DNA from: a bacterium
GTDB taxonomy: Bacteria > Armatimonadota > UBA5829
Length of the DNA stretch: 64,000 bases
NCBI GenBank assembly: GCA_021371935.1
Contig: JAJFVF010000002.1
Location: forward strand, 434,001-498,000
Direction of reading: 5' to 3'
Every line of letters begins with the position of its first letter. The stretch's first letter is position 1. This document shows, piece after piece, positions 22,673 through 38,533 of this stretch. A program made the position numbers and the translations under genes. The notes under the pieces are model-generated. The model ran no database searches, was not told the DNA's origin, and saw only the letters and a program-made list of their open reading frames with translations.

Positions 22673-24550
22673 ATGCAAAGTTATGATGTTATTGTCATCG
22701 GGGCGGGGCATGCTGGCTGTGAGGCTGCATTGGCTTCAGCTAGAATGGGTCTGGATACACTCCTTGTCACTATCAATATAGAGACCATCGGCCACATGCC
22801 ATGCAACTGCAGCGTAGGCGGACCTGCCAAAGGGCATCTTGTACGTGAGATAGATGCTCTGGGCGGCGAGCAGGCTTTGGCAACCGACGCCACATATACT
22901 CACATCCGTTTGCTCAACACGGGCAAAGGTCCTGCCGTACATGCCCTGCGTGCACAGGTTGATAAGCGGCTATATCAAGACCATATGCGCTTGACCGCTC
23001 TGCGCCAGCCCAGGCTTGATGTAAAGCAGGCTATGGTCGAAGAGATCGTAACGGAAGGAACAGGTAACAGGCAGCATGTAATAGGCATACGAACTCAGAC
23101 GGCCATAGAGTATGGCGCCAAGTGTGTGATCGTTACGACTGGAACCTTTCTCAAGGGTCTGATACATATCGGCGAGACTCAATTTTCGGCCGGCAGAGCG
23201 GGTGAGTTTGCATCGAATAAACTCTCCGATAGCCTGCGCTCCCTCGGATTTGAACTCGGCAGACTCAAAACAGGCACCACTGCCCGGATCGATAAAAAGA
23301 GCATCGACCTTACCAAGTGCGAAAGGCAGGACTCCGAACCCGACGCCGGACCATTCTCGTTCATGTCGGGTCATATCGAGCGGGAGGGTCTGCTTCCGTG
23401 TTATCTTACATATACCACAAGTCAAACCAAGGATATAATCCTGCGCAACCTCAAGCGCTCTGCTATGTACGGCGGGAGAATCCATGGCGTCGGACCCAGA
23501 TACTGCCCCTCGATTGAGGATAAATTGGTCAAGTTCCCGGACAAGGAGAGGCATCAGGTCTTCCTGGAACAGGAGGGCTGGAATACCGATGAGATTTACG
23601 TCCAGGGTATGTCTACAAGCCTGCCTGAAGAAATTCAACTTGAGTTTTTGAAGAGCATCCCCGGCCTTGAAGATGTAAAAATGCTGCGGCCGGGTTATGC
23701 CATAGAATATGATTTCGCTCCACCGACTCAGCTCAAGCCCTCGCTTGAGACAAAGCTGGTAGATGGTCTCTTCTTTGCGGGTCAGATAAATGGGACATCG
23801 GGTTACGAAGAGGCGGCTGCCCAGGGTCTTATGGCGGCTATAAACGCATCGCGCAAGATCAAGGGCGAGGAGCCAATTATAATAAGACGCGATCAGGGTT
23901 ATATAGGGGTAATGATAGACGACCTGGTGACCAAGGGGGTCAATGATCCATACAGGCTCTTAACAAGCCGCGCTGAGTATAGGCTTTTGCTCAGGCAAGA
24001 CAATGCAGATACACGGCTCACCCCGATAGGTCGAGAAGCCGGGTTGGTCGACGATGAGCGGTGGTCCCGTTTTACAGAAAAGACCAGGCTAATTGAAAAA
24101 GAACGCACAAGGCTTTCTGAGACTTATATAAAGCCGTCGGATAAAGCTGTGCTGGATGCATTGGGTCTGGACCTGACGGACCGCGCTTGTTCGCTGGAAG
24201 AAATACTGCGCAGACCTGAGATATGCTACTCGGATATCGCAAAGGCAGTCAAAAATGGCGATGTTCCACCCGATGTGGCCGAACAAGTGGAGCTTGCAAT
24301 CAAATACAGCGGATATATCGAGCGTCAGGAAATGCAAGTGGCACAGGCACATAAAATGGAAAGAAAATCCATACCCGAGGGCATCGAATATGACCATATG
24401 AAATCGATTTCCCGCGAAGCGAGAGAAAAGCTGACTCGAATCAGGCCAACAACACTGGGGCAGGCATCTCGCATACCGGGGGTGACACCCGCAGATGTTG
24501 CGATGATTGCAGTTTTTTTGGAACAAGTGGGCAGGCGAGATCGTCAATAA
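22673..24550 (+). CDS. mnmG: tRNA uridine-5-carboxymethylaminomethyl enzyme MnmG
   Basis: The 625-residue protein begins [23 protein letters not shown], the FAD-binding motif of MnmG (GidA). It has [22 protein letters not shown] and the C-terminal tRNA-binding domain. With MnmE it modifies the wobble uridine of certain tRNAs. ATG 22673 is preferred: a TATAAT at 22658-22663 would place the transcript start only a few bases before it, so a leaderless or near-leaderless mRNA is likely. A GTG 14 codons upstream is therefore not used. rsmG (gidB), often its partner, is about 1.9 kb downstream. Confidence 0.96.
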
Positions 24551-35372: not shown

Positions 35373-36701
35373 TTGGCAAACGTAGAAATGGAGACCATTG
35401 TAAACCTGTGCAAGGCGCGCGGGTTTATTTTTCAATCATCTGAGATATATGGCGGACTCGGCAGCACATGGGACTATGGTCCTCTTGGAGTTGCATTAAA
35501 GCGCAATGTTAAGGATGCCTGGTGGCGCGATATGATCGCCACACGTGACGATATCGTCGGGCTCGACGCAGCAATTCTTATGCATCCGAAGGTATGGGAA
35601 ACATCCGGCCACGTGCAGAATTTTACAGACCCGCTGGTGGACTGCAAACAGTGTAAACAGCGATATCGCGCCGATGACCTTGAAGGTGACAAGTGTCCTG
35701 CGTGCGGTGGTGAACTCACCCAGGCACGGCAGTTTAACTGCATGTTCAAAACATTCATGGGTCCGGTAGAGGACAACGCCGCAGTGGTCTATATGCGGCC
35801 TGAGACCGCCCAGGGAATATTCGTCAACTTCACAAATGTTCAGCAGGCGACACGCAAAAAGCTGCCGTTCGGAATCGGCCAGGTCGGCAAATCTTTCAGG
35901 AACGAGATCACTCCCGGTAACTTCACCTTCCGCACGCGTGAGTTCGAGCAAATGGAGATGGAGTTTTTCTGCATACCGGGCACTGACGACGAATGGTTTG
36001 AGTATTGGGTCAAAGAGCGGTGGAACTGGTACAAAAAACTGGGCATGAAAGAGGACAATCTCCGCCTGCGCGCGCATGATCCGGCTGAGCTTGCATTCTA
36101 TTCCAAGGGCACGACCGACATCGAATATAAGTTCCCGTTCGGCTGGGGTGAGCTTGAGGGGATTGCCAACCGCACCAACTATGATCTTACCAAGCACTCG
36201 GAAGGTTCAGGCAAAGACCTCACTTATTTCGACGAGCCAAGCGGACAACACATTACACCATACGTAATCGAGCCTGCTGCTGGTGCAGACAGAGCCACAC
36301 TTGCATTTCTGATCGACGCCTATGATGTCGAGATCATAGAAAAGGGTGACAAAAAAGACAAGCGCACGGTTCTGAGGCTCAGCAAAGACCTTGCTCCGGT
36401 TAAGGCGGCTGTTATGCCTTTGCTGCGAAATCGCCCTGAAATAGTCGATACTGCCAAGAAGCTCGCTCACGACCTGCAGCGAGCATTCCCGACCATGTAT
36501 GATGACACAGCATCCATTGGCAGGCTATATAGGCGTCAGGATGAGATTGGGACCCTGTGGTGCATCACGGTGGACGTGCAGACAGTTGAAGAAGATAATC
36601 AGGTCACCATACGCGACCGCGATACCATGGAGCAGATAAGGATGCCTATTGAGGGCGTAAAGCAGTATCTCAGAGATAAACTCGAAGATGGAGACTGCTA
36701 A
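35373..36701 (+). CDS. glyS: Glycyl-tRNA synthetase, alpha2 type
   Basis: The 442-residue enzyme is the single-chain class II form used by archaea, eukaryotes and many bacteria. Motif regions seen are YGGLGSTWDYGPLGV, the zinc site CKQCKQRYRADD with CPACGG, EFEQMEMEFFC, the TTDIEYKFPFGWGELEGI segment and YVIEPAAGADRATLAFL. It attaches glycine to tRNA-Gly. The start is TTG at 35373 with GGGAGA upstream. The second subunit type (glyQ-glyS pair) is absent. Confidence 0.96.
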   Translation: MANVEMETIVNLCKARGFIFQSSEIYGGLGSTWDYGPLGVALKRNVKDAWWRDMIATRDDIVGLDAAILMHPKVWETSGHVQNFTDPLVDCKQCKQRYRADDLEGDKCPACGGELTQARQFNCMFKTFMGPVEDNAAVVYMRPETAQGIFVNFTNVQQATRKKLPFGIGQVGKSFRNEITPGNFTFRTREFEQMEMEFFCIPGTDDEWFEYWVKERWNWYKKLGMKEDNLRLRAHDPAELAFYSKGTTDIEYKFPFGWGELEGIANRTNYDLTKHSEGSGKDLTYFDEPSGQHITPYVIEPAAGADRATLAFLIDAYDVEIIEKGDKKDKRTVLRLSKDLAPVKAAVMPLLRNRPEIVDTAKKLAHDLQRAFPTMYDDTASIGRLYRRQDEIGTLWCITVDVQTVEEDNQVTIRDRDTMEQIRMPIEGVKQYLRDKLEDGDC

Positions 36702-36794: not shown

Positions 36795-36869
36795 GGTCCC
36801 ATGGTGCATCGGTTAGCACACGGCTCTTTCAAGGCCGGGAGAGGGGTTCAACTCCCCTTGGGACCGCCA
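36795..36869 (+). tRNA. tRNA-Glu (UUC), prophage attachment site
   Basis: All cloverleaf parts fit. The acceptor stem GGTCCCA (36795-36801) pairs with TGGGACC (36859-36865). The D stem GTGC/GCAC is present. The anticodon stem CGGCT/GGCCG encloses the loop CTTTCAA with anticodon TTC at 36828-36830. The T stem AGGGG/CCCCT has loop TTCAACT. CCA is encoded (36867-36869). The serine recombinase reading frame ends inside its 3' half, so this gene is the likely prophage insertion site (attL side). Confidence 0.95.
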
Positions 36870-38533
36870 CCGATATGTATACTTGCGAGCGCTCGGGGGT
36901 CAATGAGATTGCCTTCGAGCGTTTTTGTTTCCGGGTCCGCTTTTATTTCCACAACAAGCCTTTTCAGTATCGATCTTCTTTGAGAGAAATCGGTCGACGT
37001 CGCAGCTTCAGCTACCTCATCCCGAAATTGCCTGAGCTTTTCAATATCCACCTTCGGAGGTCTCTCAATATCATTCACCAGCCGTAAACGCTCAAGAGCA
37101 GCAGATGTATCGTTTATGCGCTGCTTCAGTTCATCACTGCTCCGCACACTGCCGGCAACATCAAGAAGATTGGAAAGCCGCTTCTCAAGACGTTTAGCTT
37201 CACGCTTCCTTTCAGCAGAAGTGTCTGTAAAAGCACTCCAATAGTCATCGACTTGGTGATTCATTTCATCTGCCCACTGCTGCAGTTTATTGGGATCGTC
37301 CGGCATACGGGCGAGTATTTTACTGAACACAAGGTTCTCTATTGTGTCTCTGGGAATATTCCAAGACGGTCCGCAGTCTGCGCCACGGCGATAGAGGTGT
37401 GAGCCACAAACATAGTAATCGCCTGATTTGCGCTTGATACCTGCATAGTTCGCACCACAGTGTTTACATTTCAGTAAGCCACCTGAGAGCGCAAAACGTG
37501 ACTCCTCCCCTTTCCTCCCTGGTTTGGGCTTCCGATCTATATGCTCTACCATCTTTCTGATGTCGTCACACTCCTGTTCCGTGATAATGGCCGGGTGAGC
37601 ATCCGGCACGACAATCCATTCAGACGGGTCTCTTTGCTGTCGATTATTGCGGTCAGTACAATCTTCTCGATTCCAAAATGCGATGCCTGAATATTGATAC
37701 AGCCGCGTCCAATCGCCAATAAGCCCCTGAACGGTTGTATGACTCCATGCAGCTCGCTTGCTCGGAGTAGGAATGCCTGCGCTGGTCAGCTTGGCGGCTA
37801 TCGTATCGTATCCGAGATGCTGCCCGAGTCGCCAATCCAGCAGCATAGTCCTCGCCCACTCCCATACCGGCTTGCCTGCAACTACCGTGTCATCGAGCAC
37901 CCAAATGACCTTGTAGATATCCATGGACTTGGCGGACCGACCGACCTTGATACGATGCTTTTTGTATCCCCACTGCGCCCAACCGCCGTTTTTATATGCC
38001 CATCCGGTGTCGGGATCGCGCTGCTCGAAATTGGTCTTCATGTTCGGAATGACGACGTTTCTCAGCTTGATAGAGAAGAGGCGGTTCAGCGACCAGGTGA
38101 GAGGCATCATAATGGCGCCGGTCTCCGAGTCGGGGTCGTAATAGCCTTCTTCTGCCGACTCTATGCGGACACCGTGGCGGAGGAGTTCCCGCTGGATTAC
38201 CTGGGCATTGTCTCCTCTACTGAACCGATCATAGCGCCATACGAGCACGACTTTAGTATTCGGGTCTGCCTTGGAATCACTGAGCAATCTCTTCCATCCG
38301 ACACGCAGATCGTCGTCTTTGAATGCCGAAATGCCCAGGTCCTCATACCACTGGACGATCTCATACCCGCGCTCGCGGGCGTAAGCCTCGATCCGCTTGC
38401 GCTGAGTCTCAGGGCTTATATTCTTTTCGGCGGAGCGCTCGTGGCTGACGCGCACGTAGGCGCGGGCACGCTCCTGCTTGAGAGGCTCCTGGTCGGTTTT
38501 GTTATGAGAATTGAGGAGATCGTATAATGACAT
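36848..38533 (-). CDS. Large serine recombinase (phage integrase)
   Basis: This 561-residue protein has a resolvase N-terminal domain with the catalytic Ser in YVRVSHERSAEK and Arg in RYDRFSRGD. A recombinase domain follows in the middle, then a zinc ribbon with LLKCKHCGANY and YYVCGSHLYRRGADC, and a C-terminal coiled coil rich in Glu, Lys and Arg. Large serine recombinases integrate phages at short att sites. The stop codon at 36848-36850 and the last seven codons lie inside tRNA-Glu. The gene starts 3 bp after the stop of the SNase gene, so the two are likely co-translated. Confidence 0.93.
   Translation of the reverse strand: MSLYDLLNSHNKTDQEPLKQERARAYVRVSHERSAEKNISPETQRKRIEAYARERGYEIVQWYEDLGISAFKDDDLRVGWKRLLSDSKADPNTKVVLVWRYDRFSRGDNAQVIQRELLRHGVRIESAEEGYYDPDSETGAIMMPLTWSLNRLFSIKLRNVVIPNMKTNFEQRDPDTGWAYKNGGWAQWGYKKHRIKVGRSAKSMDIYKVIWVLDDTVVAGKPVWEWARTMLLDWRLGQHLGYDTIAAKLTSAGIPTPSKRAAWSHTTVQGLIGDWTRLYQYSGIAFWNREDCTDRNNRQQRDPSEWIVVPDAHPAIITEQECDDIRKMVEHIDRKPKPGRKGEESRFALSGGLLKCKHCGANYAGIKRKSGDYYVCGSHLYRRGADCGPSWNIPRDTIENLVFSKILARMPDDPNKLQQWADEMNHQVDDYWSAFTDTSAERKREAKRLEKRLSNLLDVAGSVRSSDELKQRINDTSAALERLRLVNDIERPPKVDIEKLRQFRDEVAEAATSTDFSQRRSILKRLVVEIKADPETKTLEGNLIDPRALASIHIGGGPKGS

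Follow-up and report, generated by a model that had tools for sequence, protein, structure and literature searches.

A large serine integrase gene that ends inside a tRNA gene raises two questions: whether the end of the tRNA is the attachment site of the element, and whether integration changes the C-terminus of the enzyme. We addressed both for an integrase gene in a window of 64,000 nucleotides, i.e. the entire stretch of DNA analysed, which corresponds to C2:434001-498000, a part of one of the 22 contigs of the source genome (G000). The genomes compared with it were drafts. The integrase gene runs from 36848 to 38533 on the minus strand and encodes, in its attL (lysogen) form, a protein of 561 aa with an ATG start and catalytic Ser30. 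ARAGORN detected tRNA-Glu(TTC) at 36795-36869 on the plus strand as the sole tRNA of the window; it is the host target of integration and is found occupied or empty across relatives. The integrase C-terminus in attL reads ...IHIGGGPKGS, followed by a TGA stop at 36850-36848. The 22 nt at 36848-36869 comprise the stop and six and a third integrase codons, antisense to the 3' strand of the T-stem, the acceptor strand and CCA. The original prediction had placed the recombinase end antisense in the T arm and acceptor of tRNA-Glu, and ARAGORN and the open reading frame bore out both coordinates and residues. Its count of seven codons (GGGPKGS) inside the tRNA needs only a trivial correction, as the first glycine codon is partly inside.

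Pfam comparison of the 561-aa protein gave Resolvase (E = 5e-20), Recombinase (E = 7e-15) and Zn_ribbon_recom (E = 2e-10), i.e. the domain order of the large serine recombinases, and places the enzyme in the serine family and not among the SSV-type archaeal tyrosine integrases. The catalytic serine is present, and R28-V29-S30 is invariant across 29 sequences. The AlphaFold model of the 561-aa form is ordered up to about residue 551, and its last ten residues have a pLDDT below 50. Helices 414-462 and 467-487 of the model form a coiled coil inserted in the zinc domain. The best fold matches in the PDB were SPbeta integrase complexes (9dxh, 9y66 and 9dxd); PhiC31 and Bxb1 were also matched, with E-values down to 5e-20. 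Low global TM scores to these matches are explained by different domain orientations. All known domains are intact in the 561-aa form.

To find the right border, k-mers of the tRNA end were compared with the 27 kb that follow the window on the right. One exact 16-bp direct repeat, CCCCTTGGGACCGCCA, is present at both prophage ends. The attL core (36854-36869) is the 3'-terminal 16 nt of the tRNA gene, with CCA included, and the attR core is located outside the window at C2:512038-512053 (window-equivalent 78038-78053). The attachment site had been predicted within the 3' end of the tRNA, with a partial tRNA-Glu 3' end as right border beyond the window, and both were found; attR carries a tRNA-Glu 3' fragment, where an attR free of tRNA sequence would have spoken against the prediction. 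Allowing up to 3 mismatches, no further copy of the 25-bp tRNA end was detected inside the window. The attR core is followed on its right by TGCTTCCAGCAACAAACGCTCGTGG and a terminator-like hairpin.

Based on the position of the second core copy, the prophage measures about 41.2 kb (36854 to window-equivalent 78053). The part inside the window is 36854-64000, and the remainder continues to C2:512053. Terminase, portal, capsid and tail-type genes follow rightward from about 53 kb, together with an amidase gene (all by inspection). The left flank contains a glycyl-tRNA synthetase-like host gene (35373-36701, plus strand; an open reading frame named by sequence inspection). In the relatives G003, G002 and G005, tRNA-Glu is present without an insert, and the alignment of these empty sites to the joined G000 flanks runs past the core, e.g. 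CCATGCTTCTCACCAAAAACGCTCGTGG in G003. The element is a prophage by its defined borders, the empty site of relatives and its morphogenesis genes (gene content by inspection), and the phage-borne copy of the 3' end keeps the tRNA-Glu whole.

Also within the prophage, at C2:506464-511643 (window-equivalent about 72.5-77.6 kb; loci L002/L003), is a type II CRISPR-Cas system that appears complete. It comprises Cas2, Cas1, an open frame for a Cas9 of about 1,050 aa and an array of 12 repeats of 36 nt, mostly at a 66-nt spacing, in which one pair of spacers is identical except for 2 nt. The prophage of G004 showed no similarity to this region over 3 kb next to its attR.

Among the large serine recombinases found in this phylum, an antisense tRNA overlap at the 3' end was found for 18 of the 22 genes of the same clade and for 13 of the 56 others. 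The same geometry in 18 of 22 clade relatives indicates that the overlap is not due to chance. Close homologues that end before the tRNA had been named as a case against the prediction; they end inside a tRNA as well. The view that tRNA targets are rarer for large serine recombinases did not hold in this phylum (31 of 78 genes examined overlap a tRNA), although it agrees with the literature. A survey of actinobacteria describes serine recombinases at tRNA genes as rare and names tRNA-Leu and tRNA-Ser cases (PMC3218068). In a survey of Mycobacterium, tRNA overlap is described for the tyrosine-integrase sites but for none of the six serine sites (PMC10654092). According to the Islander paper, no serine integrase is known to have a tRNA gene as its target (PMC4383910); contrary to this, large serine recombinases often use tRNA 3' ends in this phylum.

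The overlapped tRNAs were Glu(TTC), Glu(CTC), Met(CAT), Gly, Asn, Asp and Arg. The distance between tRNA end and stop varies and all three frames occur, resulting in familiar antisense peptides, GAGFEPATFGL and GVEPPPRP among them; residues encoded by the tRNA are therefore under no common protein constraint. A function of these residues was rejected, since frame and length vary freely among relatives, and in view of the three frames and the predicted disorder they are probably incidental. For annotation this means that database integrase C-termini of this kind are antisense tRNA sequence and that the true end of the integrase gene may be located tens of kilobases away.

The attP was obtained by joining the two prophage ends in silico rather than read from an excised circle. 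In this reconstruction the GGTATATGTATATTCCC side is joined via CCCCTTGGGACCGCCA to the integrase body, and the site is located inside the integrase reading frame. The best symmetry centre in G000 is the TT at core positions 5 and 6 (36858-36859), the predicted crossover dinucleotide, between the arms ATATACATATAC and GATATGTATAC. The latter, at 36872-36882 inside the integrase CDS, is the phage-side arm and an inverted repeat of the former, which is located at the other prophage end. The best symmetry centre in the attP of G004 is the same, and in that of G022, whose integrase is 39% identical, these core positions hold a CT, with TGTCTACATTG as the arm on either side. The arms thus centre on one core position in three phages, and all three sites have the form of a serine-integrase attP, in which inverted-repeat arms flank a central dinucleotide within about 50 bp. 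In the attP of a Listeria integrase, zinc-domain motifs are found about 16-24 bases from the central dinucleotide, and the layout found here is like that described for this enzyme (PMC3783163). With attP within the integrase CDS and coding conserved on both sides of it, the gene has the layout of a self-splitting integrase.

Read from attL, the integrase has 561 aa and ends in ...GGGPKGS; read from the reconstructed attP, it has 588 aa, with GGGPKG followed by a 28-aa tail, DRGICIFPTSFHFVATLNKKRGHGFRAA, and a stop. The original prediction that excision changes the recombinase C-terminus was thereby supported, with attP reconstructed in silico. The tail codons and stop are located at the other prophage end (C2:511951-512037, minus strand; window-equivalent 77951-78037). 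The tail is conserved in two further species. The integrase of G004 is 90% identical and uses the same tRNA, and its attP form continues after GGGPKG with NRGICIFPTSFRFTATLNKKRGHGFRSA and a stop; attR of this phage is on another contig than attL, beside the host Mfd gene. Tail copies ending in a stop were also found in G003 (NREICIFSASFRFVATLNKKRGHGFRAA) and in a relic on contig C9 of G000 (...QFTATLNKKRGHGYRAA).

Selection on the tail was tested by simple simulations of random placement, without a codon model. The tails of G000 and G003 differ in 16 of 84 bases, 11 of which are third codon positions, and in 5 residues versus 10.5 expected from random placement (p = 0.00075); for the part of the tail beyond the att arm, p was 5e-5. 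The comparison of G004 with G003 gave p < 5e-5. The pair G000 and G004 has diverged too little for an informative test (p = 0.07, not significant), so the case for selection rests on the more distant G003 copy, a fragment beside tRNA-Ser in an assembly that contains neither the phage nor a matching integrase. Identity within the tail is 0.77-0.89 and drops to near random past the stop, where the closest pair still has 0.57 in the first 30 bases. The stop codons of the four tail copies are TAA, TAA, TGA and TAG, the last one in the relic. The mostly synonymous changes, the end of conservation at the stop and the differing stop codons indicate that the tail is selected, with a DNA-level constraint mixed into the signal where the tail DNA doubles as an attP arm. 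Judged from the sequence, integration thus swaps a selected 28-aa tail for one tRNA-derived serine. The idea that the attachment site encodes the last residues of the enzyme holds as far as the overlap goes, but selection falls on the removed tail; this lost part, rather than the probably incidental tRNA-derived residues, is the functional candidate.

The C-terminus exchange could also be a harmless by-product of plain economy, in which attP happens to be placed where int ends, any adjoining sequence can supply a stop, and the enzyme depends on neither the tRNA residues nor the tail. About 28 open codons are not rare by chance, the clade C-termini come from different tRNAs in each of the three frames and have very different lengths, the model is disordered after residue 551 and the tails of distant members do not align. 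However, the coding pattern in the G000, G004 and G003 tails, conservation up to the stop and the use of three different stop codons make this explanation unlikely, and similar tails are present in G022 and a G002 relic.

The G022 phage represents a second lineage. Its integrase gene lies at the tRNA-Glu of contig C103. A matching attR core, flanked by a terminator of the tRNA type, was found on another contig (C49:10529). The joined frame reads ...SGSARG SCGNVDMFEITFNSKPRWYCITQRGIWQQS and ends in a stop. Its tail sequence FEITFNSKPRW resembles FEIVFGDKRRY of the G002 relic (0 of 2000 shuffles scored as high), which follows the same kind of core but is out of frame with the remaining int fragment. 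Similarity between the G000 and G022 tails was not significant (p = 0.12), and none was detectable for the tails of the distant members (G020 relic, G259 and G233). The right ends of G234, G259, G233 and G020 were guessed from 11-13-bp repeats; the resulting tails had no recognisable similarity and were not used as evidence. Conserved right-end copies in G034 were not considered clean evidence either, as this stretch contains tRNA-like sequence. A search of the genome contigs for relatives gave only one, weak, and the phage collection contained relatives at 37% identity or less only. IMG/VR contained two at 57-58% identity (L074 and L075), which show no attP because both contigs are cut at the int stop. 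A degenerate tail pattern had one match in IMG/VR, by chance.

Relics consisting of att core and integrase tail were observed in chromosomes without phage at G000:C9:99177-99335 (next to tRNA-Leu), G003:C145:17610-17784 (next to tRNA-Ser), G022:C49:15222 and G020:C47:16187; two of the four retain the int 3' end. In the G003:C145 relic, the sequence opposite the tail is similar to the downstream flank of tRNA-Glu. A perfect palindrome, TTGACATTATTC-N6-GAATAATGTCAA, precedes the relics at G000:C9:99177 and G003:C145:17610; neither the window nor the right flank contains it. In addition, integrase genes at G002:C96:4147-5187 and 22819-24507 and in G282:C4 (L063) end in a 17-21-bp tRNA 3' fragment followed by unrelated sequence, as in attP or tandem-element junctions.

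Short relics of core and tail beside other tRNA genes (G000:C9 and G003:C145) would also be expected if the tail codons were conserved as a small separate gene or as a DNA element of the prophage end, the fusion to int in attP being incidental. One relic has its own upstream ATG frame, and the first third of the tail overlaps the attP arm. Against this, the third-position pattern is exactly in the int frame in G000, G004 and G022, the intact phages share no start codon or ribosome site, and the relics carry the att core, as expected of old attR or attP pieces. We consider this explanation very improbable.

The most likely reading is that of a prophage of about 41 kb with tRNA-Glu as attB and attP inside int, which would produce a 588-aa form on infection and an altered 561-aa form in the lysogen. 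At the sequence level, this is backed by both borders, the empty site, the symmetry of attP, the two reading frames and the selection on the tail. The integrase would use the 3' end of tRNA-Glu as attB, with attP inside its own gene just past the region encoding the folded zinc domain and coiled coil. On the circular phage, int would read through attP into the conserved tail of 28 codons. After integration, these codons would remain at the right prophage end, and the int body would be fused to antisense tRNA sequence that contributes one serine and a stop; the phage copy of the tRNA end would repair the tRNA. We infer that the 588-aa form, made on infection, is integration-proficient and that the 561-aa lysogen form is less active or needs a directionality factor for excision. 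In that case, the enzyme would report the state of its own att site. Candidate roles of the tail are to promote integration, to block excision, to stabilise the enzyme, or something else.

The exchange might act as a direction switch, as the original prediction had suggested: attP x attB would be the preferred reaction of the tailed form, and attL x attR that of the tail-less form, whether or not a directionality factor takes part. This would fit the replacement of a selected tail by one residue on integration, and serine integrases are directional, with synapsis controlled by the C-terminal region (PMC3783163). However, known serine integrases obtain their direction from the coiled coil and a separate RDF protein, and effects on stability or expression would give the same pattern; a direction switch is therefore a tentative proposal. 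Similarly doubtful is that recombination produces two integrase forms in a clade of tRNA-targeting phages, a tailed, circle-only form that integrates and a tail-swapped, lysogen-only form that is inactive or excision-specific. If true, a direction switch would be written into the attachment site and used by this clade. Serine integrases are important tools for genome engineering, and the way in which their direction is enforced is an active question. The locus would provide a natural case of a conserved C-terminal tail removed by the enzyme's own reaction, and the role of the tail is directly testable, since both protein forms are defined to the residue.

Partial precedents for this arrangement are IntP of Myxococcus phage Mx8, the archaeal suicidal integrases, the streptococcal rumA ICEs and, as the closest one, DsiB of Dehalococcoides. 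IntP is reportedly a tyrosine-type integrase, unlike the serine integrase described here. DsiB is a CcrB-like large serine recombinase specific for ssrA, and its gene is likewise located next to attL, antisense over the 3' end of the targeted RNA gene; its element has a 20-bp repeat of the RNA 3' end, akin to the tRNA-end repeat in our prophage (PMC3146451). The stop codon of dsiB was called unclear, and its authors suggest that full function may exist only on the circular element. It differs in its tmRNA target, in the second recombinase DsiA and in being part of a genomic island rather than a prophage; this part of the protein was described as divergent, and a conserved tail at the other end was not reported (PMC3146451).

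The rumA ICEs have a single serine integrase, with one repeat in the target gene and the other in the integrase gene; the 3' parts of the two genes trade places on integration, so that the integrase acquires a different C-terminus, as in the present case (PMC4701971). Their target, however, is a protein-coding gene that is itself altered, not a tRNA, and the accessible text describes no selection test on the lost tail (PMC4701971). Mycobacterium AICEs (tRNA-Leu) and Ralstonia phage RSM1 (tRNA-Ser) also integrate into tRNA genes by large serine recombinases, but belong to another clade and other hosts, and the accessible text describes no overlap of gene and target (PMC3218068). The SSV-type archaeal tyrosine integrases share with our enzyme an attP inside the integrase gene, which is split on integration; the archaeal split detaches a catalytic part (PMC8371274), while our enzyme loses only a 28-aa tail and keeps its domains intact. 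The review cited for these enzymes likens integrase splitting to direction control and calls self-disruption exclusive to archaea (PMC8371274). Compared with the open-licence literature, our data provide evidence for a new case, a bacterial serine integrase of a tRNA-targeting clade in which the part cut off would be a conserved protein tail.
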